Part shown: piece after piece, positions 11,379 to 39,409 of the stretch | How positions within the stretch are numbered: position 1 is the stretch's first letter | Layout of the letters: each line of letters starts with the position of its first letter | Program-made: the position numbers and the translations under genes | Notes under the pieces: generated by a model | Told to the model about the DNA's origin: nothing | Seen by the model: only the letters and a program-made list of their open reading frames with translations | Database searches by the model: none | From: Adineta ricciae | Lineage: Eukaryota; Rotifera; Eurotatoria; Adinetida; Adinetidae | Direction: 5' to 3' | Assembly (NCBI GenBank): GCA_905250025.1 | Contig: CAJNOJ010000075.1 | Location: 352,831-416,830, forward strand | DNA length: 64,000 nt

Positions 11379-11508
11379 TTTTCGATCGAAATCTTGTTTT
11401 GTTCTATTTAAATAATCATTTTCTTTCTTTTGTCAATGTTGTTTTGTTTGTTTTCTATTTCAGATTATCAAATATAAAATTCATTCGAATATCTTGAAGA
11501 GAATTCGA
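11379..11508 (+). promoter_or_regulatory. Intergenic junction between genes A and B with a strong 3' splice site
   Basis: Only 130 bp separate the stop of gene A from the ATG of gene B. The stretch is T-rich and ends in a textbook pyrimidine tract plus CAG at 11461-11463, 45 bp before the ATG at 11509. No canonical AATAAA lies between the stop and this site. This fits a spliced-leader trans-splice acceptor in an operon-like pair, or a 5'UTR intron. A cis-join to gene A is possible but the phases of the likeliest donor do not match. The choice between these is inference. Confidence 0.5.
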
Positions 11509-14500
11509 ATGGCTTCTACATCTGTACCAAATTACCCTAATCGAGAAATTTCTCAAACATTTAAAGATATACTTGACAATAAATGTCAATCACCGTTGAT
11601 TTCAACTATAAACATTCTTCGACAAGTTGTTGAGGAATTCAAAACTCAAAATCAATCAAAAGATGATCCAAATAATGAAAATATTCGTAACGCTTTTGAA
11701 CGATTAAGAGAAATTGTTGGAGAAATTACGACAAATAGTATCGATGATCCATATGAAATCTCTTTCATCATGGACACATTGATTCTTCCCTGTTTTCAAT
11801 TTTATTCAACACATGAATTATTTTCGAAAGAATTCTTTCGACTATTTGCTCGTGTCATATCCCATTCATTTATTAGGAAGGACAAAGATTATCTCAATTC
11901 AATTGCCATTATAATCACTCGTTCAGTAATTTATACATCGAAAGCAGACATTATGAATTTAGATAAATGGACCAAGGAGAAATGGTTGGGAAAGAGAAAA
12001 GATAGAAATCGATTAATTTATCAATCAGACAAAGAATTTCCTTTCAAAGAAAATTCAAACATTGTCAAAACTTTAACGGATAACAGTAAATATCCTGTGG
12101 ATTTTGATTCTCAATTAGTCCATTGGATTAATTCAAATCAAATTTCCCGACGAAAGAGCGAAAGTATTGAAACTATTCTCATGTGTTTAACTGATCTAGA
12201 ATGGATTTTGCAAATTCTCATTAATAGTGACAAATGTCTGTCGCTTTTGCTTTCCTTTTCCATAAAAAGACCAAGAATTCGAAAGATTGAAATCAACGAT
12301 CGAAACAACGATCAAGCGATTGCTAAGCTTCAATCAATTCAAAATGAAATCATTGGTCAATATGAATATTTATCGTTAAATCGTTTCGATAATTTTATAA
12401 ATGTTCGTTGTCAAGTCGAATGGTCCGATGGTTATTCATCAATTTATCCAACAAATCAAATTTCATGTCGAACATCATATTTAGAAATTGTCGCGAAAAT
12501 GCTCATTTTTAGTTGGAATTTCAATGACAATGAACGATGTTTATGGAATTGTATGATACAAAAAATTCATCAAATATCTCGAGATTCGTTAAAAGATTTC
12601 GAAGATTTTCTTCTTTATTTTGTTGAACACGATGATGAAAGTATTCGAGACATGTCATTCAAATTATTCTTATCATTTATCGACGATATCAACATTTCGG
12701 AAACGTTGAAACTATCTCGATTAATTTCATGTCGAATGATTGAACATATTTTGGAGAAATGTTGGAAAAAAAATCGATTTGATCTCGATACAAATGTCAT
12801 TAATGCATGTCTTCGTTCATCATTAACATGGTCAATTAATGAACTTATTCATCTGTTGAAATCATTGTTAAAAACATTTCATATGATCTTTGATGAACAA
12901 TCATTATGGTGGACATTCTTTCTTTCACTTATTGAAACAAATCTTCATCGATTAACTCTCGTCAAGACTGACAAAGATTTTACTGACTTTTCTTGTCAAA
13001 TTAATCTTTCAATTGCCCAGAGAATTAGTCAATATTCAATCGAAAAGAATAATATCGATTTATTGAAACTTTTCATCGAGTCTTGCCCTTTTGATTGGAT
13101 AAAAGTCTTTTTAGAGATGTTATCTGATGAACATACGAAGTCAACAATGTTAAATCAAGGTGTCGAGCTCTTTCGATTAGCTCGTGTCAAATCTTTTCAT
13201 CAATGGAATATTTCATCAAGTGAAAAGCTTCTTCTCGATTATTTTCGATTGTCAATCAATCATCAAACGGGTTTATTTGTCGAATTATTAAAATTATTCA
13301 AACAGATCACTCCTCAACATTATTTGAACAACAATACGATTGATTACCGTCAGATATTTTGTCTTTTCATCGAAATTTTAGATCGGTCATTTCATTTGCC
13401 AAGTGAACATTGTCAATTTCATCGCGAAGTGTTCTCCATTGTTTTACCAATGATCTTCGATTATGTCAAACGAGCTTTACTCAACGATTCCATGTTGATT
13501 GAAGAAAAAGATCTCGAACGAATTCTTCGATCGACATTTTACATTTCAATTGAAAACACAGATCTTCGTTGTTTATTTCAATACATCATTCGAAAGGGAC
13601 GAAAAGATTTGATCAATACGTGGATGGATGAACTTCTTTTATTTTTTTCGAAAGATGATCAATTTTACGAACGTTTGCGACTTTTTTCAATGGATGAAAA
13701 TCAAATAAATGAACTATTAAAAGAAAAACTCGACCAAACAACAACTCTCATTTCAACAAGTTCATCATCAAATCTTTTCTCAACTCATATTCAACAATCA
13801 ATGAAAATTTATCTGGAAAATCTTTTAAATTCCAATGAAAATATTCGATTGAGTGTCATTCGTTTGCTCATTTCAACTCTAAACGTTCAATCGAATGAGA
13901 TTGAACAAATTTATCAAATTTTGCCCAAAACATCCAAAGTACAAGAAATTGAAACAAATGATGATGAACGAGGATGCAATTATTTAATTGAACGACAAGA
14001 AAAACGTTCCAAATATCAAATTCCTTTTCAATTAATCAAATCTTCGCATTTTCAACAACTCAATCAAGATTTACGTAGATCATTCGATGAAAACGAATCA
14101 TCAAGCAAAGATCTTTCTGAATTTCGTTCGAATCGATCTTTAACTCAATTTAATTCATTGATTCCAAATGAACAAATTCATCAACCATTAGTCGAAACCC
14201 AATCATTGATTAACAATCGAAAACGAATTATTGAAGCTATTCGAACACCAATTCATCTTTTACTTCAAGGTGAAACCGGTGTTGGAAAAACCAGTTTAAT
14301 CATTGATATTGCTCGTCAACTTCATCAACCATTAATTCGTTTTAATTTCTCATCGAAAACTGATCTTGCAAATCTATTTGGTTCATTTCAATTAAAAACA
14401 AATGGAAATCAGATGGAATTTCATTTTGACGAAGGACCATTTACTCGAGCATTTCGTCAGGGTCTCTGGTTACTCTTAGATGAAATGAATTTAGCATCAC

Positions 14501-17500
14501 CAAATGTTCTTCAATCAATTGAACAAGCAATTGATTCAGGTATTTTATTTTTATCAAATGTTGAAGATGATCGAAATGAAAATGATCAACAAAACAAATC
14601 AAATTATCGAATTTATAAAATGCACGACAATTTTCGTCTATTTGCAACACAAAATCCGTCGTTAGGTCGATATAAAGATGCACGAAATGTTCAATCGACT
14701 TCATTAATGACACGTTTCAATGTTTTTCTTATCAATGGACCTGAACATGATGAATTGATCGCCATTATCGAACATCTTTTCAAACAAAAATCTTTTCGTT
14801 TTACGCTTCAAACACAAACAATGATTAAGCTTCATGAAAATGTTCTTCAACGAATTCAAACGACAAATTTTACTGAAAAACATACAAATTATTCTCAAAT
14901 GACTATTCGAGAACTTTTTCGTTGGACTTTTAATCTTTGTCATTATGAAAACTTATTGAAATCCAACGGAGATTCGATATCTAATCCGAACGGAACATAT
15001 ATCAATGGAATTCTTGCCGAACAAGCGATGATTATCTATGCTTTACGATATCGTCAAAAGTCGAATCGAGAAGGAATTATCGATGAAATCAAACAAATTT
15101 ATAGTTTAGATTCTTTATCATTATCGACAAATGTCATTGAACTTCAAGATTCACTCAAAGATTATTTGAAATTTCAAATCGATGAAAGAATTCTTTCGAA
15201 TTTGTATTTAATAAATCTTGAACAAATTATTTCTCATTGGCCAAAAGATGTGTCTCAACCAAGAGAGAAAGATAATGTGAGAAAAATTATTCGTATTCAT
15301 AATGAAATCTTCAAGAAACTCCATCTTGGACCAATTCATCGAATTTATCGATGTTCCTACGAATGTCTCTTATCAATTCTCAAAAAATATTTTGGACATA
15401 GTTTAGAAACTTTATCAAGAATTCTTTTCAAAACTTATCTAAATATAACTCGTGATGAAAATCAACAAAAAATTCTTCTCCAACTTTTGGAAGATCAATG
15501 TAATGAATTGAAAAATAAATCAAATGATCTTCATTCATTACCGATTGTTCCTCCACCGTTTTATCTTGATAAAGAAAGTCAACAACTGATGAAACATATT
15601 CTTTCTTTACCATCACAACAACCGATTCTTCTTGTTGGACCCGAAGGTTCAGGTAAAAGTGATTTTGTTCAAAGTTTAGCCAATCTTTGTCAAGTTCGTT
15701 GTGAACATTTGTATTTAACGCCACAAAGTGAACCATCATCATTAGTTGGTTCATTAGTTCCACAAGGCAAATCACCTATTTGGCAAAATGGATCTGTAAC
15801 TGAAGCGATTGAAAAAGGTTATTGGTTAATTTTAGAAAATCTTTCCGAAGCATCGTCTGTCGTTCTTGAACGTTTAAATTCAGTTTTAGAACAACCACCA
15901 CAATGGATTTTACTTGAAAATAATCAACTTGAACCAATGAAAGTTTCAAAAGATTTTCGTTTAATTGCAACAATTTCACCACCAGCATTAAAACGTCTTC
16001 AAAATGCTTCAATTGCAATTAATCGAGAATTATCACCAGCATTGTACAATCGATTTACAATATTTTATTATGAAGGTCTAAATTTAACATCTTGTGAAAC
16101 ATTTACTCAATTATTTCAAACATATTATCCAATTGATGATAAAGATCTTTTAGATTCTTTATACGATTTGATGCAAGATGAGAAAATGACAAGTCGAGAT
16201 TTTGTTCGATGGATCGATTGTGCTTATCGAATGAAACATTCCAAATATCTTTCCTCGATTTCAATCAATGATGCTTCAGTTTTACTTTCAGCATTTGATT
16301 TAGTTTTCTCTTCGCTATTAGAAAAATCTATTCAAATCAAAGAGTATCTCCGGTCAAAAGCGGATAAGAAATCAATTGATTGGTTCGATCTTTCAATTCC
16401 ACAGACCATTCGAGATGAATATCAACATTATATAATCGATTCTCAAATAACTCCATCGAGATACGAAGCTGCAAAACGTATTTGTGCTTCGATTATTTGT
16501 TCTCGACCAATTTTACTTGAAGGACCCGCAGCAACTGGAAAAACAAGTCTCATTGATTATTTATCAAAATGTTTCGAAAAATATCTTTATCGAATCAACA
16601 ATACACAAGATACGACTATCCAAGATTATTTTGGTTCGTATATGCCAAATGGAGAATTTCTTTTCGGTTCTTTATCACGAGCAATGTCGGAAGGCGAATG
16701 GTTCGTTGCGGATGAATTTGATTTAGCTGAACCAGCGGTGATGAATGTTTTATATCCAATACTGGAAGGTCAACAACAAATTCTTATTCCCAATACAAAT
16801 AAACGATTATTTATCCATCCAGAATTTCGTTTTTTTGCGACACAAAATGGAATGAATTATCTTGGAAGAAAACAATTACCCATTACATTACGATCAAGAT
16901 TTCTCGAAGCTCCATTTCAATCATTTACTGAAGATGAATTCAAATTTATCATTATTCAAAGAAATCGAACTGAATCGAAAGATTTTAATAAAGAACTCAC
17001 AGGATTTGCCGATTGTTTAGCATCAACAGTAACACATTTGAATGGTTATGTCGATGAAAAACAAAGATTTTTATTTGGAGGAGATCGAATCAAATTAACA
17101 ATGAGAGAAATTATCAAATGGATTCGAAGAAAACAAAATAAAAAATCGATTTCATGGCAAATCATCGGATTAACCTTACTCGAATCTCGAGTACCAAAAC
17201 AATATCGTCAAGAATTTCTCAATTGTTTTCAATATGAAAAGACTTTTTCACAATTTGTTGATCTTTCGTTTAAAGTTCAAATTCAAAAAGATCTCATTTC
17301 TCTTCATAATGTTAATTATGAACCGATTTCATTTAAGTTTTATAATGAAAAATATGCTAATGAATCGAATCTTTCTTTCGCACCACAAACATTTCTTTTG
17401 TCTCTCTGGAGAATATTCGCTGCTGTTGAAGAAAAAGAACCAATTCTTCTTATTGGTCCAACATCATCGAAAACCCATTTGATTCGAACGTGGTCAAAAT

Positions 17501-20500
17501 TAATGGCGAATGAAAATAATCTTTGTATCATAACATGTTCATCTGCAACTGAAACAAGTGATTTAATTGGATCAATTAGGTAAATATATTCGTTTCGCTT
17601 CATAAAAAATCACTTTGTTTTTCTTTTTTCAAAGACCTTATACTCATGCCGAAGCGTTTTCTCTATTTGTCAAATGTCTCCGTGAATTTTATCAACGATT
17701 GATAAATATTCTACAGGATAATCATTCGTTAATGGAAAGTTATCTTCAAAATATTAATCGTCTAAGTCAAATTATTGAAGATTTTCTCGTTCGACTCAAA
17801 GATGATCAAAATCGAAAACGACTAAGACAATTCAAACATGATCAACAAGTTGATACGATTAATGAAGAACAAACTCAATTCGAAGATATTCTATCACCAT
17901 TATCGCTTTCTGCTCCAAATTCTCGATCAGCCACTCCACCACCAATCTTACAGAAACGTCCTTTACAATTCGCTAATGATGATCAATCTTCGACAAGTGA
18001 CGATGGAAGTGTTTTTGAATATGAAGCAATGGGAAATGAAGTGGATACAATGCAAACATCTGATGCAGATGATGATCCATTTACAACGAAAAGTGATGCT
18101 ATTAATGAACCATCAACACCTGATGATGTAGATCCATTCGAAAATAATTCGGATAATTTTACAGAGAAAATGCCACATGATGATGAAGATGATAAAGATC
18201 CATTCGAAGAGAATTCCTTTCAATCAAAAGACGACTATGGAAATCTGATGGAATATTTTATGAAAAATGAAAATGATCTGTCGACAACATCATCGAATAA
18301 CAATGGAATATCTTCAAAGCAAAATAAAGAAAAGAATCCAATTTGTGAAGCATTTCAATCAATTGAAAATTCATGGAAAGATATCGTTGACAAAATGAAG
18401 TCATTTGAACGAATTTCTAATGATAATGGTCTGACATTGATGAAACACCGTTGTGAAATAATCATCAATGAACTTCGTCAAGCCATTGAAGAACAAAAAT
18501 CGAATATATTTCTTTTTCAAGATGGACCTGTAACAACAGCAGTGAAACAAGGTCAAATTTTAATTCTTGAAGATATGAATGAACCATCACAAGCAGTGAT
18601 AGAACGATTAAATAGTTTATTAGAAACTGAACCATCGTTTGTTCTCTATGAAGATTTTACCAGTCGAAAATTTGGAACAGATGATCAAAATCCTCGTTCA
18701 AATATTTCAATTCTTCGATCATTTCAAATCTTCGGAACAATTCATTGTGATGAACAAAATGAAACACGTGTACAAATTAGTGCGGCGACACGATCACGAA
18801 TGACAGAAATTCGTGTTGAATCTTATGATTATAAAGATTTAAAATCATTGGCCAAACAAAATCAATCAAATGAACCAACATTCCAAGCAGAATTTGAACA
18901 AATGATTGACATTTTAGCGGATAAATTGGCACCAACACTCGCTCGAGCAACAATGAAAAGTGAATCACTCAATTCGAGAGATTTTCTTCGATTTGCTCAA
19001 TGTTTACAATTACATTATCATTCAATGCCAATGAAACAAGCTGCAGCTTTATCGATTAAATTTTTATTTCTTGATCGGGTCTCCATGGGAAGAAAATCAT
19101 CTTTGAAATCAGTCTCAACTAATGATCTTCTCTGGCAACAGGTTTTAAATGCTTTCCAATGTGACAGAAATTCAATTATTCTCGATGATCAAATTGATCA
19201 ATCGATTATTTATACAAATATCGATGATTGGTGTCAAATCGAAAAGAATCAATCGACATCTGAACATCAATGGGCTTTACGTCTGAAATCGAATCGATTA
19301 ATTGCTCCTTTTTCAACAAAAATTATTGAACAACCTCAACTTTCTCACTTTCGATTAGCAGTGACGAAATCAGTTTTGAATAATATCTCACGAATCATTT
19401 TTTCTCTTCATTCATCGAATCGACAACTTCTTGTTGGTCCACCAGGTATTGGGAAAACAAAAATCATCGAAGTTTTAGCAGAATTACTTGGTTATCAAAT
19501 CATTCGAATTAATTTCAGTAATAATACAACTTTTGACGATTTAATTGGTTCGTTTGTTCCTCGAGTTGCTCATGGACAACGATCATTTCAATTTCAACCA
19601 GGTCCACTTTATCAAGCTTTACAAAACGATCGTCATAATACAATAATTCTTTTTGATGAATTAAATTTAGCCCGAAAAGAATTACTTGATCAATTAACAC
19701 CACTTTTTGCCAATAGTAAATCTCTTTTTATTCCATCTTTGGGTCAATCAATTGATATTGATGGTTCAATTGTTATTGCTACAATGAATCCTGCATCAAT
19801 TGGAAGTGGACGAGGAAAATTACCACGATCAACTGAATCACATTTTCTTCAAGTTCAACTTTCAAATTTTGAAGTTATTGAATTAATGCACATTACAATT
19901 TCTCTTCTTCGTCGTCATCTCGATGCTGGTTATTTAACAAGTAAAATCATTGAAAAGATCAATCTGTTTCATTATGAAATCAGTGAAAAAGCACGACTTA
20001 GACAAATCGGTCGTATCGGTGGTCCTTATCAATTCAATTTACGTGATATTGAAAAATTATCAAATCTCATTGCAAATCTTTCTGTAACACATCGAGCTCA
20101 TCTTAATCTTTCGAAATCGATTCCAAATGAAAATCTTTGTGAATCAACTGAAAATGACAATGTCGAAGAACAAAATATGATTCGAAGTCTTCATGTTTAT
20201 TTAGATATTGTCTATGCTTGTCGATTTGAATCAATTAATGAACAAAATCAAGTTCGTGAAATGATTCGAAAACATTTTCCTTTAATTGACAATTCACCTT
20301 TGATCGATCAGAGTCGATCTCAAATAATTGATTGTGATTTAAATCTTCTTGGTTATGTTCGTCTTGGTTTTGTTTACATTGAAAAGAAAGACTATCCATC
20401 AATCTATCCACCGTGTACTCATAGTAAAAAAACTTTAGAGAAATTACAACTACTCGCTGCTACTGTCATTAGTAAAGCAACTGTTTTGATTGAAGGTGAC

Positions 20501-23500
20501 GATTGTTCAGGAAAAACAGCGATTATTTGTGAATTAGCACGACTTTGTGGAAGACGTTTATTACTTTTCAATCTTAACCATGAAACAACAACTTCGGATT
20601 TACTTGGTTCATGGACAATTATTAACAAAGATTTATATGAGAAGAAAAAAATCAAACAAAATCGACAATTTCTCAATGATCTTCTTCGATTTTCATTGGA
20701 TCGATTATTACCTATTGCTGAACAATCGAAACAAATAGATCAATTTATTGAAAAGATTATTTCAATTGTTGAATTTTGGGAAAACAATGAACATTTGGAA
20801 ACTTTCAATCATTGTCGTTCTTTATTAGAATTTTCCTCGAAACAATCAAATGAATTATTAAACAAATGTTTAAGTGAAGAAATTGAAAAATATTTCGATT
20901 TACTCGATCAAATTGAAGATAATTGTAAATTAATTGAAGGATTATCGGAAGGTTTAACATTTACATTTAATAAAGGACCTTTAATTGAAGCAATGGAACG
21001 CGGTGATTGGATTCTTTTAGATAATATCAATTGTGCTCGAGGTGATGTGATCGAACGATTAAATTCATTAGCTGAAAGTGAACCAAGTTTAAATCTTTAT
21101 GAATCAAATGAAACACAAATTTATCGTCGTGATCAAGGAATTCATCAAGATTTTCGTTTATTTGTTATTGGAAATACAAATCGAAAAGGAAATGAGAAAT
21201 TATCAAATGCATGGAAAAATCGTTGTTTAATTATTCGAATGAAACGACTCGATGATGAATTAACGATTGAAAATGTCGAAAATCATGATACAAATCAATT
21301 AATTCAAGGAGAACTTCAAGGAATCAATGCAGGAGAAGAATTTACTCATCTTCTACTTCGAATTCACGCATCAGCTCAACAATTATTCAATGAAAAACAA
21401 ATCGAATTGATCACTTCGTACAAATATTCGTATCAAAATCTGAAAAGAGCCGCACGAATCTTACGAACATATGCACGTGAAGGAAAAGATTTAATGTTAG
21501 CATTAAAAACAGCTATTTTTAGAAGTTATATCGATCCTATTGTTAATCAAAATGGGAAAGAAGCATTAAGAAAGTGTTTTATCGAACATCTTTCCAATGA
21601 GGAATTGAAAAAAGGAAATTTTTTAACTTTACCAATGAGAATGACTTCTGAAACACTTGAAGAACAAGTTGAACAAATGGATTGGTTTAAATCAGCACAA
21701 ACTCTTCGAGATGTTTTAGCTTCAATTGAAGAATCAACTTATGATTTTCATCTTCAAATGATTATTAAAGAATTTGATGATGAATCGTTTCGTCAAAAAG
21801 AATTTAGTCCTTATGCTTTATCTTTACTTGATCATCTTTCACCTTTAATTCAAAGAAAAGTTTCAAACAATGAAGAACAATTATTTGGACAGAAGATTTC
21901 TTTATTTCGTCAAAAACTTCTCCAAATTCATCAAGAATATTTCGATCCATTGATTATTAATGAAATAAAACCATTTTTCAGTGAAATATCGAGGTTTCTG
22001 AGATCCGAATCGATTCTTTTGATTCTTGATCATATTGAAGATACGATCAATCAACTCAATCAACATGTTAAACAATGTTCGATTTTAATTGAAAATTTTG
22101 TTAAAAAAACGTCTTTTCTCGATGCATTTTCTCGAACAAAAGAATTGAAACGAATTAAAAAAACAATCGATCAACTTCGATTCTTATCGATTCAAAATCA
22201 ACAAATTCGATTAGGTGAACGTTCATTGATCAATGCACAGAGAAATTATGAAGTTAACCAATGTCTTTCTCAACTTCTCATTTGTGAAATTTATATTCGA
22301 TGGGTTTCATTTCCATGTCAATCAACAGTGAAAAATGATTTAGATATTCTTCTTCGTACAAATCAAATTCTTAATGAAAATCTCATCGATGAAGAAACAA
22401 CAACTGCTTTCAAATTTCTTAATGTTCATTTACAAAAAGTTCAAGCTTTACCAATTATTTATTCAACTGATCAAAGATATGAAACTATTTTCAGATTATT
22501 TCAATGTTTACCAAAAACAGAACAAACTCGAATGATTTGGAAATCTTCTGCAAAATTAGAATTGAATGTCGCGTGTAAATTATCGATGAATCTTTTGATT
22601 AAACGAGATTTTCTTGAAATCATCGATGATCGATATTCTCTTTTAAATTCATCGACATTTTTGAACAATCTTAATGTTCTTTTCTACATGGAAACGATTC
22701 TCAATCGAATCTCAAACGAAATTGACAATTGTCAAATCAATTTAGAAAACATTGTGAAAGAGTTGCGTGAACAGGAATTATCATCAAATTCATCTTTTCA
22801 AGTCATTGATATGGATTTTGCGCAAACAACAATTGACATTCATTCAAGTGATACATCAACCGACAAAATCAATGAAATCAAAGAAAATCTTCCTGTTCTT
22901 TTTCTTGCTCTTCGTGAAAATATTCAACAATATGATAAAGATGGTTCGTTTAATGATATTGATAATTTTATTCAACAACGAGAAATTTGTTTTACACGAG
23001 ATTTGATTGAAACTATCGGTGAGATTTATCATCAAGAATATCTTTGTCATCAAAAGATTTCTTCATCACATTTACTTGATGAAGAAACGAAACAATTGAA
23101 ACGACATGTTTTACAAGAACGTGTTTTTTCTCGTTTTAATCACGAAATTCTTCGTTCGAATCGAGGTCAAGCATGTTTAGCATTGATGCAATTAGTTTAT
23201 CCATCTCTTCTTCAACATGATCTGCTCTTTTCGATGGTCTGTGAAAAGAATTTTCATGAAATTATTGAACAAAGTTTAGAAAGACAAAATCTTCTCGAAA
23301 TTTTCATCGAACCACAATTCAATGAAATCCTTCTCATTGATAAAAGTCAATACAATCGTTATATTTCAAATGAATCAGATTTGATTCAACTCGGTACACA
23401 ACTTCGAGTGACTCATTTTGTCATTCATCAACAAAATCATTCAAATTCAACAATTTTCGATTCTCTTTTTGAACAATTTCAAAAGAAAACTAATTCAATT

Positions 23501-26500
23501 GAATTTCGTTTTCAAAAGCAAATCGTTAAAAGTTTCTTAACTAACGATCACATGCATTTCGCATTACCTTGTCTAATCAACCAATTATTTCATTGTTCAT
23601 CATCAATCGATTTATCGATAGTTGAAATTGATTTAGAAAACGCACAGAAGATCATCACTGAAATTCGTTCGTGGTTCAATGAATATGAAAGAAATGGAAT
23701 TGTTCAAAATCATCAAAATCGAATCGAATATCAAGTAGAAATCTCCATTGAAAAACATCTCAAGATTTTTCAAACAATTATCAAACAAACTCGACAAATT
23801 CTCGATGAAGTTGTCTCATCAAAATATGTCAATATCAATTCCATCAATCAATTTACCAAGAATGTTCGAACTAATTTAGAAAAACAAATTATTACCGATT
23901 TGAGAATAACAATTAATGATGCTTTACAACAATGTGTTCCCGAAACGATTTCATCTCGTGTGAAGTTGATAACGATTGTCGATGCAAAAAAATTCCGTTA
24001 TCCAGTCTTAACTCAATTAAAACCACTTTTATCTGATCAAAATATAACATTTAATACATTTGTTTTGAAATTAATTGATCAATTACATCAAATTCAAACA
24101 GAATTTCTCAAACTACTTTTAACAACGAAAGAAAATGATGAAAGTGAAATATTTAAAAATGCACATCAAATCTCGAAATTCTTAATCAAAACAATGTCGT
24201 CGATTATGGATTATGTCGATACATTAGGATTTCGAATACCTTTTCCAGATTTTACTCAAAATCTATTAAACATAAACAAAGAAATTTTAAATCATGTTCT
24301 TCAAATTCAAAGAAAAACTCAACTAACAGATGAAGAAATTGGCAAATTCACGTTGTTTAAAACGAGTGATATCAATGAATTTGATTTATCAAATCATTTG
24401 AATTCACAGACAACTATAGTAACAAATATTCCTCAAGAGAAAAAAGATGCCGAAGAAACAATTCTTGACAATCAAAAAGAATTATTTGTCGAAATTGAAA
24501 CCGAATTGGAAAAATTACGACAATTAGCTAAAGAAAAAGATCTCTCTCGACTTCAATATGCAATTGCCATGTATTTGACACAATTAAATCAAATGAAACA
24601 AAGTCGAACAAGATTAACTGAATCAAATCGAATTAGTTGGATAAAATTACCTAAACAATTACAAAGAAGTATCGCAAACGAATCAATTGAACAAAAGAAA
24701 ACTGACTGTTTCAATATTAAACGTATCAAAGATGAATATTTATCAGAAATTTCAACAGAAATGATTCGAAAAGAAACAACTATTATTGATCCTTATTCAC
24801 CATTATTATCAGATGAACAAAGAAATGAACTTCAAGAAACAATTGATCAATTATTTGATGACGAATGTGACGAATCTGATCCAACTTTAGTTTTTTTACT
24901 CGATTATCTTAATCGAAATATTTATGAATCCATGTGGAAAAAAGTTGAATCATTAGTTTATTCTTTATCATCATTAAAACAAAATAATAAAAGTACATCG
25001 GAATCAATTCTTGATACTCTTAACTCATTGAGAGCAACATTAATCTTTCTTGATGCGAATCAATTAGCTGAACAATGTCGTCAAGTTTTACAAGAATATG
25101 AAGAACAAATGAAAAATGGAAATAATCAATTGGCATTTCTCAATTCAAATTGGAAAGAACTTCATCGACAAACATTAAATAATGTAATGAAAAGACGATT
25201 AATTAATATTCAATATGTTAAACATTGTGATACTGAACAACTTCGGGATATGATTTCAGATGATAATCAGATGAATTCATATAATTTAATCTCTTTTTAT
25301 CCATTACTTATTAAATTAAAGAAAAGACATGAGAAATTAACTGAAATTGTTTATGATATGACAAGTTATAATCAAATTATTGGAATTCATATGTCATATT
25401 TACGTTTATCAGATTGTATTGTTATTGTATTTCCTGATTTGATTCATTTATTTCTTGAATCAATTCAATTTGATCAATTAGATTTTCGTGAAACCAAAAC
25501 AATGGAAATTTATTTGAATAGTGATGAATTTAGTGAATCAATTGACGAATTTTATCAATTTCGATTAATTCTTTCAAATGATCATCGAGAATCTTTTAGT
25601 CTATTTCAAAATGATCAATCAATAGCAAGAGATGATTTGAAGAATATTATTAAAAAATTCTTTACAAGAATTTCAAATGAAGGACAAATCGATGATTTTC
25701 GCCAAGTTGGTTATCATTCTGTTAATGAAAGTAATGAATTTCATTCATTTTTTGCTTTGGAATTTCGAGATCTTCTCAATAATTTGTTTGAGAAAATGCG
25801 AGAAAATGTTCTTGGTCTCACCAAACAATTTAATGATTCTACTCGATTTCCAGCTGATGCCTTTCTCAACTTTTCCAAATTATTTTGCAATGAAATTAGT
25901 CCTGATCTCGACAGAATTCGTATGCGACAACGAAATATCGAAATGCGATTAGCTGGATCTAAATTGACAGATTATGAAAGAACAAATCTTGAAAAAGAAA
26001 GAGATCAAATCAGTCAAGACTATAAACGAATCGATATTGATTATCATACGAAATTAAATAAAGAAATTATTCAACGAATTCGACAATTAGTTTCCATTCA
26101 TGACCAATTAGAATCTCGAAGTGATGATCTACCCTCACAAATATTGAAAATAATTGAAAATACTCATGAAACGAAGAATATCAAGGAACAGAACAAATCC
26201 ATTTCGATTACATCGATCGACTTTCATCGAAAATTACTAAATTATCATAAAAATGTTTTAAATATTAAAGTTGAAAGTTTCGAAGGATTGGAAACGAATC
26301 TTCGCTCATTTATTGGAGAAACTCGATCAAATCTTGAGAAGATCTACGAAGAACATCGAGATTTACTTCGTTGTTTCGATGAAAATGATAAATTATGGAA
26401 AATCTTTCAAACAGCTTTAATTTCTTATCAATTATGTCACAATCAATTATTCAATGCAATGTTCAATTGGATTCGTGATTTAACCAATCGACGTAAGATT

Positions 26501-29500
26501 TATAGTAATGATATTCATCGAATTATGGAAAATAATCAAGAAAATGTTCGAGAAGCATTCGAAATACTTCGACCGATTATTAAAGTCAATGAAATTTCAT
26601 CAATTCCTGTCGATATCTCATCAATACATCGTATTGTTCAAGTCATTAGTCGTACAATTTTAAATTTTGATCAATATCTGACAGAATCTCAAGCATTTTA
26701 TAAATCAACAAGTTTATCAATTCTTCTTCATCATTGTTTAACTCTTCATGCTCGTATTGTCGTTTTTCTTGTTCAACTTTATAAAAATTATTCAACTGAT
26801 GATTCACAATTGAAATCATTGAAAATTCAAATTGGAAATAAATCAATTTCTTGGAACGATCAAATGAAAATCTTATTAAAGAAAAGTCGTTTTCGTCTCG
26901 ATAAAGATATTCCAGGAATAATTTTACCAACTGATGAATTTTCATTAAAAGAAGTTCATCGATTTCTCTGTCATGATTATTCATTTTTACAATATAGTTT
27001 TTCTTATCGTTATACACATACATTTAGTGGAATTTGTTGTAATCCAATTGCTTTAATTGATAATATCGAACGAAAAATTGATGAAATACTTCAAATCGAT
27101 TGTCGTTATGAAAATCAATTTTTATCAACTTATAACACATCGTTAATTCAAGTCAGTTATTCTCTCAATCTTCTTGTTCGAAATAATCAATTAATTATTA
27201 AAAAAATCTTAAATAATAAAAATGATTATTTCGAACAAAACACAATGAAACATTTGAAAAGATTTCTCGAGAAATTATCTGATGTAACTCAACTGAAATG
27301 TTCATCAATATCACAAATATTAAATGTATTTGTAGATTTTATTCTCAAACAACATTTTGATGATCTTTTAAATGAAGGTTTAGCTTTTTTTAAATATTTA
27401 TGTCAAGAAAGATCATCATTAACAAAAATAATCAATCATTTTCCATCTTTATTAGAATATTTTGTTAAACAATATTTCGATTTGATCATCGATTATTTTC
27501 AATGGGAAAAACAAGATCAAATACAAAATTTTCAGAAAAAACTTCAAATTTTCAAAGAACAAACAATTAACAAAAATGAAATTTCTCTTATTGAAAATTA
27601 TCTTTATTCTCAGTCATCTGATGGTCATCTTTTGACCACAAATTCCGATGAATGGCACAATGAACTTGTTGCATTTCTTCTTCAATCATGGTCGCAGGTA
27701 TCACGGATTTTATCTTCATTCGCTGGTCCTTTTTATAAAGAAAATGAATATTCTCGAAGAAATTTAAAATATTCTCAAGTTATTGCTTATTTTCAGCAAG
27801 AAAAAATGGATTTAATTAAGTTTATTCAACAAACAATTGAAGAATTTAATAAAAAATACTCAGATCATCAAACGATTAACGATGAACCAGTCATCGTTCA
27901 TTTAATTCGAGTAAAAGAAATCTTTCGATATGAAATTATTCAAATGTCTTTGAATTCATTTCGAGAAATCTTTTCACATTGTGATGAAATTAAACAGGAC
28001 AATTGGCAAGGCATTTTTCAATTCATTAATGACAAAACAACACAGTGGAATAAAGAAATTCAAAATCTTTTGGATATACGTAAATCAATAAAAGAAAAAA
28101 TCGTCCAAAGAAGGAAAAGCCAATATGATGATAATGTGCGAAATATTGGAGAGGAAAATAAACGTAAAACAGAAGAATTTGATCAACAATATGAAAGATT
28201 CAACAAACGATTAGCACAAAATAAAGAGACAATGATGAAAATCTTTGGACAAATCAAGTTAATTGGAAAATTACTTTCTTCGGATGATTACAATGGAATT
28301 AGTTCAAAAGATAATTCTCGATTTTATGGGCAATTAACTAAAAATATTGACGAAACCATCGAATTACAAGACAAATTACCTGATTCTTGTCGATTAAATG
28401 AAGAAATTGAAGGAAAACAATTAATGGAAATGGTTCAAGTTCAATCAGTTCGATTTAATGTGCACCGAGTAACATATATTGAAGATATTCCGAGCTCTAT
28501 CAAATCTGAAAAGACATCATGGGACAACAAAATTCAATTGATTTTAAATGATGATGATATTCTCCAAGAAGGTGAAGTTGTAACAGTGAAAAAATACGGT
28601 TATATGAATTATGTCGATAATCTCTTTGAGAGAAAAATAAAAATACCAGATAATGCAATGACTCAATCAGGTGAAATTTGTCGAATTAATCTCATGGCTG
28701 GCTCAAAAAAAGACAAACAATGGCAAAAGATGGCTCAGATCTCGTTTTCTTATAATGATCTGTGTCAAAATACACGCACAATTCAGGAAAACTTTGGAAA
28801 ATTTAAGAAAAGCATAATTGTTATTGATATTACTCCTGAAAGAACTTACAATTTAATAGGATCAAACGAAAAATTACAAAATAAAACTCTCGCTGACGAT
28901 CCTTCTCTAAAACAACACTATCAACAACCTTATGAAGTCATCGAATCACTTCAAAAAAATATTGAAAAGCTCCAATCGGAACTCAAAGTAGGTTTTCAGG
29001 CTCCTATTCCCCCACGACCCATTGAAATCCCATCATATGAAAATTTTGATCTGATTCCTATTCAACAACAAGAATCTGATCTTCAATGTCTTTCTCACCT
29101 ATCTGATGACACTCATCATCAATTAATGTTGAATATGTCTGGAACTTTTAACACAATTGTACAAAACTTTCAATCGAATTTCACAATTGTTAAACAATTT
29201 TTCAATGAAAATTATGCGAATTCTCTACTCAATGTGACATCAATGAAATTTCATCAACGTGAAAGTCTCATATCTGATTTAGGTATTCTAAAAACACAAT
29301 TTTCTTTCAAAACAATCCATGAAAATCTTTCAATAATACACCAACAAATAATGGAAATCCATTCATCTGTTCAAAAACTCCGTACATTTCGTGACAAATT
29401 ACAATCATCAATTAAAACTCTACGTGAATGTCGATTTCGTGTTGAAATAGCACAGACTGAAGGAAACATCATTATTAAACCCATCTCATCTATCTACACA

Positions 29501-32500
29501 AAAAAGATGTTGGACTTAATGAATGAAACACTGAATTTCACATCCAATTTGGTAAAACGTTGTGAAAATCTTCGCCAAACATGGAAATCAGCTTGTGTAC
29601 ATTATGCACAGATTCTTGTTCAAACTTTGAATAATCTAGAACATTATGAAAAAGCTTTGACTCTGTTTGAAAACGTGAAAACAGATTGGCTAAGAGAATC
29701 CCCAAAAAATGCGATCAATCAGGATGAATTAGCAACTTTAGATGATTTGATGAAATTAATAAAAGAACAACAAAAAGAACGCGTTGAAATGAAAAATAAT
29801 AATTCCATAAAACAAATCAATTTGAAAGAATTAAGTGAAAAAATGAATATGAAATCATTACTTCAATATCGTGAATCACCAATGTTTAGTCAAATTATAT
29901 TTGAAAAAGTTGACGATCAATTTATTTCTTCACCATCATTTTTAAATATTCAATTTCAACCAATTGTTTTGCATTGGTCATCAAAGGAACCAAAAAGAAA
30001 ATTTATTTATCTTCTTAATCGGACAAATGAAACGATTTCAATTGAATTTATGAAAGATATGAATGAAAACTCCGAAAGTTCCTTTCAAATTCAACCAATC
30101 GAAACAACGATACGTGAAAATAGTCGCGAAGAAGTTCAAATCTCTTTTCTTGAATCGATTGATGTTGGAGAATTTATGGAAAAATGGATCATTTCTATAA
30201 AAGACCATTCTTTTGAAATTCCATTGAAAATTTCTGGTGAAATCAAACAATTTTTCATTTTTATCGATTTACCATTGATGGATCCGATGAAAATGAATTC
30301 AATCAAAACATTTTCTCTTGATTTTGGTTTTGTTGCTTGTGGAATTCAAGAAAAACTTCAAAAACAGTTTTGTATTGAAAATTCGACATCAGTTGATTTA
30401 CGAGTTAAATTACGTCGAGAAGCTGGTGCCACTGATCTTTTTGAAATTTCTCAGAAATGGTTTAATTTCATTCTCTCAGCACATGAATCAAAATCTTTAT
30501 CAATTCAATGGTTCATCCCAGCGATTCCTCGTGATTCAACATGTGTATACGAAATTTATTTCAGAAAAGATTTGAAATATCGTTTATTTTGTCAAGGAAA
30601 ATCTCGAAATATCGGATTTGATTTGATTCATAAGTCAAAGATTCTTCCAAAAGATCAATCTCGCATTACACTTCCTAGTTGTTTACCAGGAGAAATTCTT
30701 CAAGAAGAAATTCTCATAGAAAATACCAGTGAAGTCGAGATAAATATGAATTTCTTTATTGAAAATCAACCAAATGAAATTGAACTTTCTTTATCACATC
30801 AACAAGCAAATATTCCAGGTAAATCATCAATGATGTTCAAAATACATTTAAAAATGAAGAAACCTTATCAACAATTGATATCAACTATTGTTTTTCAAGT
30901 TTCTCATATTCAAAAAAATCTTGTTCATAAACTTATCTTACAAAATACAATTGCTTGGCCAGAATTAACTATTGATGGTAACAAAAATGATTTAACAGTA
31001 GAAATTGAGGGTGATTATAAAGAATATGGAAATACAATTTCTCTTTGTAATAATAGTTTAGTAACAATGAAAATTGATCATTTATATACAACATCAACAT
31101 CATTTACTCTTCATCCCGAATGTTCATTTCCAATTGAAATTTTATCTTATCAAACATTAATCTGTCCTTATGTTTATAAAATCGATAAAAAACTCGCTAA
31201 TTTTCATACTGCAATCATTGCTGACGGAAATTTTAAAGATAATCAAACAAAAATTGCGTGTCATTTTCGACTAATGATTCCAGCTATATCTTTATCACCA
31301 TATGTTTTACATTATGGTGCCGTAATTTCCAAATCTCCTACAAAACCATTAACAATTCATGTGAAAAACGTTGGAAATATCTCTGCAGAATTGCAATTGG
31401 AACGAATGGACACTGACACGTTTTTTATAAAAACTTTCCCAAATCAATCATCTTGGTCTTTGTCTGCAGGATCACACACATCATTAGTTTTATCTCTTCA
31501 CACAAAGGAGATCTCTTCCCTCGGTAATTTTACTTATATGATTCCATTGAAAATGAAACATTCGGGAAAGGAAATTCAAAATAAAAAACTAATCATTACT
31601 GTTCGATTTCGAAAGAAACAAAATTTGGATAAACAAAGATTATTAATCAATTTTCCAACTTCATGGGAATTTCTTCAGAATTCTTCAATATACGAACGTT
31701 TAAGAAATATTTTAGAAGATGACAAAGATTTACGTCAACAATGTTTAGCAATGGCATTGTGTCCTCTTCTCCTTCTTTTCGATGGTTTAAAAACTGTGAC
31801 AACACGATCAGAAATAATTCCAACTGATCTCTCATGTGATCAGATATTTTTATTAATTCAATCAAAATTATCTGTAAGGAACGGCAATAAGACTCCAATT
31901 GAAGAACAAATCGATCGAATATTGACCACATCGTGTTCATCAACTTGCTGGACAACATGGTTATCAATGGTTCGGGAACTTCTACGAAATTCATTACCAA
32001 ATTTAATTCTTAGTCTTGAAACATCAACACCAAATGAATATTTGAAATTAGCGATTGATTGTGCTGAACAATTAGCCATTCTAATCGAAGATCACGCAGA
32101 TAAATTGGAAGATCAAATTCTTGCTCGTCTTATCGAATACAGAAAAACTTCGACTCAATTCGACGACGAAAAATTTAAATCATTCTTGCACTACACAGCT
32201 GATTTGTTATTCAATCAGAATTCATTTCAAACGATACCTAATGAAGATGATCAAGAGCGAAAGATAAAATTTATTGAAACTTTGATTAAAGTTATACAAA
32301 TGAGTATCGAAAAGAAAACCTTGAAAGAACAATTCAAAAATTTTGTTATGGAAATGCAAACAGAAAATAATCGAAATATTTTGACATTTTTTCAACGATT
32401 CTTAATGTTAATCATTGAACGTGAACCAATTCATCAAGAAATTCTCATTGAGAAATTAAATGAATGTAACCTTCTATTTACTGATGATTTCTCAATGAAA

Positions 32501-35500: not shown

Positions 35501-38500
35501 TCAACGCGATCAGTTTCTTTACCAACTTTCAGTTTTACAAATAGAGAATCGGAAAAGCGATCCGAAGACAAAGAAATCATTCCTAAAACCGTATCATTAC
35601 CAACAATTGATGTCGAATTTTCTCAGGAAATACGAGTACTTCATGAAATCGAAACAAAAATCAGAATTGATGCTATGCAAAACATTGAACAACGAACTTT
35701 AGAAATCGAAAGTGACAATAATATATTGAGAAGCCGAATGAATGATTTATATATAAATGAACAACTTGCTTTATATGAAATGATTAGTTACCTTACTAAA
35801 GCAAGATTACAATGTAGACATATTCAACAAGTTCTTGATGCTTTACAACAAATGGCTGTCAATGAGATGATTCCAGAAATTCTCAAACTTTCTTCCACAT
35901 CAATACCAAAAGTCATTTTAGCTTCAATTGAATTATATCAATCAATGAAACAAATTCAAGGAACAACAAATCCAATTTGTGGACATATCAAAGAAAAATC
36001 TCAGCAAATTCAAACTGATCTTATCAACGTTTTGGAGAAAATTCTTCAAACAGAATATCTTCGACAATTGTGCAAATCAAATAACAAAGCCCTTTCAGTT
36101 GCAGATTATGAAATACCAGCAAATGGACAAATGTCCTTGATGAATAAACGAACAATTGTCCATAGAACTGATTTACATCCAAAGATTGATGAAATTCAAC
36201 AAATGATGGAAGAGTTTGAAAAATCTAAATTGGAAGAAGATCATACTTTTGGAAATACGAATTTTCATCGTTTAGAACTTCATCTCGATCATTCCTTATT
36301 ACACAATGAAATCGAATCAAATCAATTAGATGATGATATTGAAGAATTGAAAGAAATGCCAATGGTTGATCAATCGATTGATTCATCAAATCATCGTGAT
36401 ATTCTCTACAATATCATTGAAGATAATCGACCAACTGATAAATCAAATCAAATCGTAGATACAACATCAATCGCGCAAAATTACATTCGTTTATCGACTG
36501 ACAACGAAATGAAAAACAATGAGAATGATCAGAATAAGAATGAAAAACGTCGTCGAATAAAAATTTCCAGAAAAAATATCGAACGTTTGAAGAAACATTC
36601 GGAAAAATTATTTCAAACATTGTTAAAATCGACTCAAACAAGTGAAATCGGAAAAATTAGTGAAGCATGTGACCCGGAACAACTTCCCGAAGTTCAACTC
36701 AATCAACCACGATACAGTTTATTGGCTCGAATAACTCGAAACATTCAAACAATGTTAATGATGCGTTTACGTTCGGTTTTAAAAGAACAACTTGAGAAAC
36801 CAAAAGATGAAAAAGAAGATTTACAATTTGAATTCATTTTTTGTGTTGATAATAGTGGAAGTATGAGTGGAAAAAAGATTCGTGAAGCTTTAAATACTTT
36901 AGTTATTCTAATGGAAACATTTCATCGTTTAGAATGGAAATATGGTGTTGTTCGATTTGGTACAGATCAAAAGATTCTTAAAGCATTAAATCATCAATCA
37001 ATGTATGAACAAATTCCATCAAATGGAAATGTTAATCTGAGACATCAGACTATTTCACGAGGACAATATATTTTGGAATCATTTACAACTGTTGAGAAAA
37101 CTTTACCAGCTACAGCTTTAAAACAAATCGCTCAAAATCGAGATCTTTTTGGTGAAAAAGCAAAATTAAATGTAAAACGATTTGTTATTATGATTACCGA
37201 TGGAATATCACCTCAAAGTGATGTTAATCAATTCAATGAACAATTGAAGAAAGCTAATGCTGATCTTTATATTGTTTGTATCGTTCCAGAACAACCGAGA
37301 AACGTCAATTCAACAACGATGAGTGAACAAGAACGTTTTGCGATTGAACATGAAGAAAAAGCGAAACAATTCAGTCAACGTGTGGCACCTGATCGAAATC
37401 GATTAATTGAAGTCGGACATATAGATATATTAACAACAACAGTTCTAAGTGATTTAGTGAACATAGTTAGATTAGCTACAATCAGTTATAATGAATCCAA
37501 TCGAATCAACTCTTTAGTATCATCAAATTCAGATGTTAATCAAATTTGTGTAATGAAACCAATGGTTATTTCACATTACCAAGATATTCAATCATGGCAA
37601 TCTCCTAAGATTGATTTTACTGGTCGATTTTATAATAGTGATCCAAATCGAAATTTAGATCAAAAACAGAAACAGATTAATTTGGATTTTTCTCATTCAT
37701 TCGATGAATTCATCAAACATTTCGATCAGAGTATGTCTGATCTCGAAAACAGTTATATCAATGCTGAAAATCAAACAAAAATTATGATCCAAACTGAAAA
37801 ACTCTTTCGCCAAATGGAACAACATTGTGAGTCATATATTATTGAATTTGTTCGAGTAATGGAAGAATATCTTTTACCTGCTTATAAACCAACACAATCA
37901 TTACCAGATACTCGTGGAAATCGGTTGTATATTCCAGGTGTTGTTCGATATCTGTGTACTCAAGGTCAATACAATCGAATTTATTTGAATCCGATCGGTT
38001 CACCGAAAGCGGAATATCGTATTGCGTTAATTCTCGATCAATCGGTCTCAATGACGGGACCAGCGTATTTTGCTTCAGTCGAGATTCTTTTCTCTATGTG
38101 TGCTGCATTAAATCGTCTTGGCATTGACGATTTTAACGTTCTATCTTTTGGCAGAGAGATTCGATTGATTAAAAGTTATAAACAAACGTATGATCGAGTA
38201 TTTTTTCATCATTTTCGTACAAATTCGAATATTGATGGTGAAACAACACTTCTAAGTGATGCGATTTTTGCTGCTGCACAATTACTTTTATTACAAACAA
38301 ATCATCAAAATAATTCTGGTCCAATGATGATCTTCGTTCTCACTGACGGTTATGATCATCGTACACATTTACTTGATCGTGTTTTGACTTATGTTGAACA
38401 ACAATCGATCACTGTTCTTGGTTTAGGAATTGGTGCGGAAGCGAATGGTGTTTGTCAATCATTTCATGATTGGATTATCGCCCAAAATCCTCATCTCACT

Positions 38501-39409
38501 TCAGATGCGTTCATTCAATGGTCAACTCAACAGACTGATGGTCAAACACCTAATGATAGTCTTTATCATAAAGCAACATTGTCGAATATTCGAACTGAAG
38601 ATGGTCGAACGTTTACAAAAATCGATGATATATGGAATGAAGATATGTGTAATTATTTTGATGAATTAACAAATAGTGCAGGACGAACAATTGATGCTGT
38701 ATTTTCCAATGAAGTTTATAATGCTCCGTTAACAGTTGAAGTTTGTTTTGTTATGGATTGTACATCGTCAATGGATCCTTGGATTGCAGCTTGTAAAACA
38801 CATATCCAATCGATTGCTGAAGGTATTGAACAACAAGTGAAAAACCAATGTGAGAAGAATACTACTTTACGAATGGCTTTCGTTGCGTATCGTGATTATA
38901 ACGACCGACAACGATATGATTCAATTGATTTTCAACCATTAAACATGATCGATGAAGTTCGAAAGAAAATACAGAGTCAAAAGGCAGAAGGTGGAGGTGA
39001 TACTTGTGAAGATGTTCAAGGTGGATTAAATGAAGCTTTGAAATTGAGTTGGACTAGAGATTCTATACATCCTGTTGCTAAAGTTCTTGTCTGGGTTGGT
39101 GATTGTCCTGGACATACTGATTTCTGTCATAATAAAGGACAAAAATGGGACAATTATTTAGATGGTCTTTCCGATGTACCATTGATGTCTGATCTCATCA
39201 AGCAGATCAAAGACGAAGAAATATTTTTATTGTTATCGGATTTTACAACTTATGTTCAATTGATGTTACAAAACATTGAAAAGATCTTTATCGATGATAG
39301 AAAAGAGTCCCAAGTGAAAAGAATTAAACTAAATTCACCTGATACTACGAAATTATTCGATGAAGTACAACGACAAATCAGTATAATCATTGCCAGTGAA
39401 TTCATGTAA
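11509..39409 (+). CDS. Gene B: giant midasin-like AAA+/ASH/VWA protein, about 9,281 residues
   Basis: Two exons, 11509-17579 and 17635-39409, with a 55-bp phase-2 intron. Six AAA+ modules follow a helical N-terminus. Walker A motifs are: AAA1 GETGVGKT (about residue 921, LLLDEMN, ATQNP), AAA2 GPEGSGKS (1376), AAA3 GPAATGKT (1671, ADEFD), AAA4 degenerate GPTSSKT (1981) with an acidic insert at about 2090-2250, AAA5 GPPGIGKT (2625, LFDELN, ATMNP), AAA6 GDDCSGKT (2978). Walker B acidic pairs are changed in AAA2, AAA4 and AAA6. A helical linker of almost 3,000 residues leads to ASH/HYDIN-like repeats (about 6120-6690) and more helices. Three VWA domains follow: DNSGS (about 8425), DQSVS (about 8820, after GNRLYIPGVVRY as in midasin) and DCTSS (about 9060, alpha-kinase-VWA type). 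Midasin is about 5,000-5,600 residues and has one VWA and no ASH repeats, so this is a divergent paralogue or new family. An AATAAA lies at 39496-39501. Confidence 0.85.

Follow-up and report, generated by a model that had tools for sequence, protein, structure and literature searches.

A giant midasin-like gene of the rotifer Adineta ricciae with six predicted AAA+ modules, three VWA domains and an alternating pattern of ATP sites

The motor protein midasin pulls assembly factors away from ribosomes that are still immature, and it is usually regarded as one machine serving one pathway. A gene found at positions 11509-39409 of a 64,000-nt stretch of contig C75 (the window, to which position numbers refer unless another contig is named) in the 130-Mb assembly of Adineta ricciae raises the question of how far a giant protein built like midasin is still a midasin. 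A preliminary description of this DNA had proposed a midasin-like protein of about 9,280 residues in one frame, with six AAA+ modules, a linker of almost 3,000 residues and three different VWA domains, and all these elements were recovered in the analysis that follows. The gene (hereafter the C75 giant) lies, like every feature below for which no other strand is given, on the plus strand; it begins with an ATG at 11509 and its two predicted exons translate into 9,281 amino acids without an internal stop. Exon 1 (11509-17579) encodes residues 1-2023 and part of codon 2024, comprising the N-terminal region, AAA1-AAA3 and the P-loop region of AAA4, and is followed by a GT donor at 17580. The predicted intron (17580-17634) is 55 bp long, has GT-AG ends (GTAAAT...CAAAG) and keeps the frame, and predicted introns were found at the matching place in the paralogues C48 and C141. 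Exon 2 (17635-39409) runs in one open frame from the remainder of residue 2024 through the stop. Since 7,267 codons are uninterrupted, the frame is not due to chance; a chance frame or a pseudogene was ruled out by this frame, the conserved motifs and the substitution ratios of the paralogues. Separate AAA and VWA genes are very unlikely, because in three paralogues of a second subtype (type 2) the AAA modules and the first VWA share one uninterrupted frame (C75up, 7,493; C12, 7,717; C112, 7,430 codons).

Pfam matches supported the six AAA+ modules: AAA_5 was matched in exon 1 (E=5e-54) and in the exon-2 piece (E=2e-41), and AAA_lid_7, the midasin lid family, was above its cut-off in both exon pieces. 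In the PDB, midasin was by far the best match of both halves of the ring (phmmer, E=4e-104 and 6e-74), and most of the remaining matches were ATPases of the NorQ/CobS and ClpB/ClpC/Hsp104 types. Six tandem AAA+ modules in one chain and the midasin lid family are thus common to midasin and the C75 giant, which is nearly twice as long and is distinguished by an N-terminal region of ~880 residues before the ring. The AAA_6 and AAA_7 matches, which would point to dynein heavy chain, were weaker than AAA_5, and no dynein or RNF213 chain appeared at E<=0.001 among the 12 and 22 PDB sequences matching the two ring halves. RNF213 resembles the C75 giant in being a giant single-chain protein, described as having a dynein-like core (PMC7311170; here and below, statements credited to a PMC number refer to the passages of that source that were at hand). 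No RING or other E3 family was present among the 13 and 7 Pfam families of the exon-2 pieces or among the 25 of 46 families viewed for exon 1.

The motifs of the six modules were read one by one. AAA1 with its midasin-type lid (14200-15108, residues ~898-1200) has the Walker A GETGVGKT, the Walker B LLLDE and the sensor ATQN, and it looks competent, as do AAA3 (16456-17118, ~1650-1870; GPAATGKT, FVADE, ATQN), whose best match is midasin AAA3, and AAA5 (19370-19963, ~2603-2800; GPPGIGKT, ILFDE, ATMN), which has lost its own arginine finger. AAA2 (15571-16188, ~1355-1560) has an intact Walker A and neither the catalytic Glu (LILEN) nor the sensor Asn. AAA4 (17431-18883, ~1975-2440, intron included) shows a shortened P-loop, GPTSSKT, and the Walker B LILED, with 351 residues between the two motifs, and AAA6 (20426-21433, ~2955-3290) combines the Walker A GDDCSGKT with loss of the catalytic Glu (LLDN).

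This arrangement is common to the five full rings of the family. Sites 1, 3 and 5 kept Walker A, a DE Walker B and the sensor Asn in 5/5, and the catalytic Glu was gone from sites 2, 4 and 6 in 5/5, site 2 reading EN or DN, site 4 ED with a P-loop one residue shorter, and site 6 DN. The arginine finger, its position being assigned by analogy, was retained in five of the six modules (AAA1-4, AAA6), whereas all five rings have a replacement in AAA5. In the midasin Rea1 the finger for site 4 is supplied by the next module, AAA5 (PMC6286127), and by this rule the lost AAA5 finger would serve the dead site 4; the fingers for sites 1, 3 and 5 (in AAA2, AAA4 and AAA6) are retained. ATP sites 2-5 of Rea1 are functional and its AAA1 and AAA6 have no Walker B (PMC6286127), and the midasin of A. 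ricciae itself keeps DE in modules 2-5, whereas by motif the family has sites 1, 3 and 5 intact and sites 2, 4 and 6 not. As judged from the motifs, the alternating pattern is for these reasons a real difference from midasin, and we regard it as the main new observation; it suggests that hydrolysis may be restricted to the odd sites.

The C-terminal part contains three VWA domains. VWA1 (36821-37363, residues ~8420-8600) carries the MIDAS motif DNSGS and TDG; VWA2 with its N-terminal extension (37820-38518, ~8753-8985) carries a midasin-type MIDAS (DQSVS...T...TDG) and the element-II loop region; VWA3 (38726-39253, ~9055-9230) is of the VWA_4 family and has DCTSS. Pfam gave PF00092 with two stretches (E=8e-21) and VWA_4 (E=1.5e-7), and profiles made from the family reached 225-433 bits with the domain they represent and no more than 21.4 with either of the other two, showing that the three are mutually distinct. 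A profile of the VWA2-VWA3 region from five family members found midasin first in the PDB (E=3e-10), level with a chain labelled NDE1; an inter-alpha-trypsin inhibitor chain was far weaker. The alignment of this profile to Schizosaccharomyces pombe midasin extended through the stretch preceding the VWA. The VWA2 family profile scored 80.6 bits on the midasin of the same genome, and VWA1 and VWA3, which are other VWA types, gave no match to it. One VWA is thus the midasin MIDAS domain; midasin has a single C-terminal MIDAS VWA with a midasin-specific extension, which only VWA2 matches, whereas in the C75 giant another VWA follows it and there are two further VWA types. Elsewhere in the genome, open reading frames (ORFs) of ~600 codons at C145:63252-72624 and C185:99431-102180 contain a VWA 33-36% identical to VWA3 and are a possible source of that domain.

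Several features of midasin were searched for in vain. In Rea1 the stretch before the MIDAS VWA forms a loop by which the MIDAS is docked in the pore of the ring and which bears a PY-type nuclear localisation signal (PY-NLS) (PMC6624252). This signal is absent from the C75 giant, where the aligned stretch GNRLYIPGVVRYLC has neither the basic cluster nor the PY; the loop of the midasin of the same genome keeps the basic residues and has SY instead of PY. A basic KRIKLN near the C-terminus (KRVKLN in C141) resembles a nuclear signal and could serve as one. The auto-inhibitory helical insert of midasin AAA2 was not found, only 64 residues lying between Walker A and B of AAA2 in the C75 giant as against ~170 in S. 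pombe midasin (read from the PDB alignment). No long D/E-rich stretch precedes the MIDAS domain either: within residues 3290-8400 the maximum is 26 D/E per 100 residues (33 anywhere in the protein), and the acidic stretch of the A. ricciae midasin reaches 47. As four tested midasin-defining features are lacking, the C75 giant is best assigned to a midasin-like family that differs in its ring pattern and has multiple hooks.

Between the ring and the VWA domains lies a linker (21434-29863, residues ~3291-6100) that has no convincing Pfam family. Midasin also has a long linker, but the sequence of this one is not recognisable as midasin's: there was no PDB match and no profile match to the midasin of the same genome, and its identification as the midasin linker found no support in either comparison. 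It is followed by ASH/HYDIN/Cep192-like beta domains (29954-30553, ~6131-6330), the second of which, from ~6250, was placed by position from C48, where two ASH-type domains adjoin; midasin has no such domains. The match in the C75 giant is weak (Cep192_D3 at 25.0 bits, short of the cut-off of 27). However, at least one ASH, HYDIN, CFAP65 or Cep192-type match per linker was obtained in 7/7 family sequences, counting matches at E up to 0.1 in the scan that included the C75 giant and 0.01 in the others. Three of the seven exceeded a curated cut-off and four, the C75 giant included, did not; among the three, a single stretch sufficed in C75up, while in C12 and one C141 copy only the score of the whole protein passed. 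The HYDIN/ASH-like repeats of the preliminary description therefore stand at the level of the family, where the profiles lead us to accept them, and are individually weak in this protein. The structure prediction that it recommended for residues 6100-6700 was run with AlphaFold on two sequences and gave a mean predicted local distance difference test score (pLDDT) of 31, which neither shows nor refutes the fold, so that the assignment rests on sequence profiles.

Is the C75 giant the only gene of its kind, and does it stand in for midasin? Own-genome searches, in which only the best candidates were scored so that the counts are lower bounds, gave at least seven family sequences, the C75 giant included, in two subtypes; two of them may be haplotypes of one locus. 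Type 1 comprises the C75 giant, the C48 gene (cut by the contig end, with one stop near that end) and two C141 copies, and type 2 comprises C75up, C12 and C112, with four VWA domains each in the sequences read. The C141 copies (C141:57000-110000, L024-L029) are 91-98% identical in DNA and interleaved, probably an assembly of two haplotypes. A true midasin is present separately at C135, where midasin lids, a VWA and an acidic stretch occur and the match is split among many ORFs, and thus the C75 giant does not replace it. A further midasin-lid match (34.5 bits) at C106:120206-120478 could be a second midasin copy, and the strongest AAA_5 matches of the genome are at C10:851700-853170.

Per 300 residues, identity of the C75 giant with C48 was 0.43-0.69 across the ring and 0.53-0.65 across the VWA region, which are the best-conserved parts; it fell to 0.19-0.39 for the sequence separating these two regions and to 0.27-0.36 on the N-terminal side of the ring. 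Type 2 sequences align well with the C75 giant only in the ring, the linker start and the C-terminus. A maximum-likelihood tree was built from 38 AAA rows (30 family modules, five midasin modules, the AAA module of the bacterial locus L032 described below and two bacterial MoxR) over 213 of 387 columns; midasin AAA6, L032 and both MoxR rows form long branches, and the midasin rows were partly pieced from exons. AAA1-AAA6 of five family members formed six starred clades, each split 2+3 by subtype. The even family modules grouped with midasin AAA2, AAA4 and AAA6 and one bacterial MoxR (support 95/95), and the odd ones, like midasin AAA3 and AAA5, fell outside this set at weakly supported forks. 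Because the six clades show the same two-subtype split, the ring is, on this tree, duplicated as a whole unit in which the odd/even alternation of midasin is kept.

The ratio of non-synonymous to synonymous substitution (dN/dS) between the C141 copies was 0.208 (3,472 codons, linker), 0.213 (570 codons, linker) and 0.082 (1,217 codons, C-terminal), and none of these stretches contained a stop, so the linker and C-terminus of this pair are under purifying selection. Between the C75 giant and C48 it was 0.26-0.59 over seven stretches, a rough map only because synonymous sites are near saturation (1.1-2.3 changes per site).

Taken together, the ring, the MIDAS homology and the family make it somewhat more probable than otherwise that the C75 giant is a very large single-chain mechanochemical ATPase of midasin type, a pulling machine with several hooks whose substrate is probably not ribosomal. 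It most likely works like a midasin. The six AAA+ modules of one chain would form a ring with ATP hydrolysis at sites 1, 3 and 5, to each of which the even module next in line would supply its arginine finger in trans, and the even sites would be structural or regulatory. The long linker and the tail would bring three metal-dependent VWA domains back to the ring; VWA2 would dock there through the midasin-specific loop and grip its ligand, and VWA1 and VWA3 may hold further ligands, or different faces of a single complex. With the ASH-like domains of the tail anchoring the machine to a scaffold, ATP-driven movement would extract the bound subunit from a larger assembly. The Mdn1 MIDAS forms catch bonds with ubiquitin-like (UBL) ligands (PMC8837202), and the Rea1 linker moves and produces force (PMC11603028); by analogy, grip and force of this kind might be transferred to the C75 giant. 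The midasin derivative of the preliminary description is therefore retained as regards the ring, the MIDAS VWA and the added VWA and ASH-like domains, and is to be amended in that the family has at least seven sequences and an ATP-site pattern unlike midasin's. We put forward more tentatively, as possible but doubtful, that the family is a distinct AAA+ motor in which a three-fold alternating single-chain ring works several VWA grips per cycle, anchored by ASH domains, and extracts subunits from a non-ribosomal complex beside midasin. The presence of midasin and at least seven giant midasin-like sequences in one genome suggests that the principle of pulling with a MIDAS hook is used elsewhere, and the alternating competent sites offer a testable contrast with midasin on how ATP is coupled to force in a fused six-module ring.

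A number of observations weigh against the pulling machine. The C75 giant is known here from DNA sequence alone. Its C-terminal part, searched as a single sequence, matches midasin in the PDB only at E=1, VWA3 keeps D-x-T-x-S without the usual TDG, and AAA6 has a full P-loop in only 3/5 members. Since no similarity of the linker to that of midasin was found, the force path is assumed. Structure prediction was uninformative for the VWA region (pLDDT 31-32 over both predictions) as well as for the ASH-like one. In the tree, midasin was represented by AAA2-AAA6 only, the fork setting the odd modules apart is weak (55/76) and the modules are not resolved into one-to-one pairs with those of midasin. 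The C141 ratios cover only the linker and C-terminus. Finally, C282 contains four short fragments of the C-terminus of the C75 giant, three of them with a stop, which suggests that one homoeologous copy has decayed, so that the gene may be dispensable. Early-linker fragments were also found on C113 and C284, those on C284 with stops. The C282 region that holds this relic (C282:87563-87982 and 97633-101656) is apparently collinear with the part of C75 downstream of the C75 giant, and the neighbouring ORFs are 90-91% identical.

If the protein were instead a subfunctionalised ribosome-assembly midasin, it would serve the same pathway on other UBL-bearing assembly factors or at another stage. The MIDAS domain with its element-II region and the KRIKLN/KRVKLN stretch would agree with this, but the PY-NLS residues, the acidic stretch and the AAA2 insert, which contacts the pre-60S particle, are all absent and a true midasin is encoded in the same genome, and we think such a role unlikely. 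We give the same low weight to the idea of a sensor or defence factor gated by ATP, on the pattern of RNF213 or the bacterial MoxR-VWA conflict systems, in which a fast-evolving middle would recognise foreign or damaged material and the ring would act as the switch. The middle (residues 4500-8400) and the N-terminal 880 residues do diverge faster than the ring and C-terminus, several paralogues and decayed relics fit turnover, and in one Neisseriaceae metagenome-assembled genome (MAG) a midasin-like AAA module is fused to DUF2971; no effector domain, however, was among the Pfam matches listed, and dN/dS between the C75 giant and C48, though rough at that synonymous divergence, stayed below 0.6 in 7/7 stretches.

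The ASH-like matches raise the further explanation of a ciliary or centrosomal remodeller, placed by these domains on axonemal or centrosomal structures. HYDIN, Cep192, CFAP65 and ASH-type families matched in 7/7 sequences, of which 4/7 were below every curated cut-off, and ASH-related folds occur outside cilia too; the matches thus point weakly to a ciliary or cytoskeletal target, and we hold this reading to be still less likely. That the ring is mainly a scaffold, in a gene that arrived by horizontal transfer or with a mobile element and is now decaying, is very improbable. One intron in 28 kb, as against a midasin gene split into many ORFs, and a giant planarian retroelement with a midasin-like stretch (PMC6431247) speak for it. 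On the other hand, the odd sites are conserved, the C141 copies have dN/dS of 0.08-0.21 and several paralogues have open frames; no mobile-element family was found by Pfam in nine flanking ORFs, five of which match nothing, and 0/94 bacterial and viral loci (L043-L136, L032-L042 being left out) showed more than one such AAA module in one frame with our own profiles (E 1e-3, at which a degenerate module could be missed).

A viral origin was also rejected: in searches of viral_contigs, queries A1 and A2 gave no relative and query A7 gave at least 600 stretches, at least 216 of them relatives, of which 80 were kept, and the screen of 94 loci just described showed no locus with two AAA modules in one frame. 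Bacterial MoxR AAA and VWA pairs (NorQ/NorD, RavA/ViaA) are described as an AAA_5/AAA_3-type ATPase with a VWA partner, as here, but they have one AAA per chain and a separate VWA, whereas the C75 giant has six AAA and three VWA in one frame. The search of genome_contigs for a bacterial origin gave seven loci, of which three were read (L032, L034, L038); L034 and L038 were rejected as a source, both being single CbbQ/MoxR-type genes. L032:2-2557, the Neisseriaceae MAG gene mentioned above, is cut at the contig start and joins DUF2971 to an AAA module that closely resembles midasin AAA3 (four stretches matching yeast midasin, E=7e-51). Its P-loop GPSGYKS resembles that of AAA4 of the C75 giant (profile support is weak), and the G+C of the contig is ~0.25 around the fusion gene and ~0.39 beyond it. 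In the order to which L032 belongs, 238 of 399 genomes had a match; among the matches listed, all but L032 cover one AAA module and there is no second case of AAA with DUF2971. Query AAA3, the only one used for phages and plasmids, gave 42 and 1,222 records, none covering 80% of it. The matches of exon 1 in PADLOC were set aside as apparently generic AAA similarity.

A published relative may exist in another bdelloid. The Rotaria magnacalcarata gene g37061 encodes 7,479 residues of unknown function, ~1,000 of them weakly similar to midasins; in two isolates, which possess a partial insertion-free copy as well, a retrotransposon interrupts the gene (PMC7943196, Nowell et al. 2021 eLife). It is, like the C75 giant, a bdelloid giant with a midasin-like part, although shorter, and from this description probably belongs to the same family; in the passages of that account at hand no ASH domains, VWA number, ring pattern or family are described. 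A gene annotated simply as Midasin appears in a rotifer selection experiment (PMC6927961). No named family with this domain order was found among the top results in open-licence literature, which is no proof of absence.

The C75 giant is preceded in tandem by the type 2 paralogue C75up, whose C-terminal part occupies 2-11378 and whose ring precedes the window. C75up has predicted introns near 8987-9038 (donor ambiguous) and at 10494-10544, an ASH-like Pfam match at ~4343-4567 and four VWA domains between ~8270 and 11225, the first of them recognised by similarity to VWA1 of the C75 giant and not by Pfam. The two genes are separated by a 130-bp spacer (11379-11508) in which neither AATAAA nor ATTAAA occurs; a pyrimidine-rich stretch within it ends in CAG, 45 bp upstream of the ATG. 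An operon of C75up and the C75 giant with spliced-leader trans-splicing is possible from this arrangement; however, the acceptor-like site alone does not show it, because C48 and C141, neither of which was seen following another giant, have pyrimidine-rich AG sites of this kind too, 47 and 53 bp ahead of their respective ATG.

Downstream of the C75 giant are genes for a gamma-glutamyltranspeptidase and a ceramidase. On the minus strand, an ORF at 63280-63999, cut by the window end, encodes a ubiquitin-like domain (ubiquitin family, E=3e-11) of the kind bound by MIDAS, and a link to the C75 giant is conceivable. TGTGGG arrays, which we take to be the bdelloid telomere repeat, were found in the assembly by a weak scan whose control, the reversed repeat, is the same array. 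Nothing in Pfam matched three ORFs (50348-51778, 51747-53093 and 53428-54420). Two of them, the first and the third, are members of a family that is very large in this genome and whose ORFs, of ~430 residues, frequently lie in tandem: the first had at least 91 own-genome matches (89 of the 1,394 candidates being scored), ORF 51747-53093 among them, and the third at least 121 (121 of 1,211 candidates scored).

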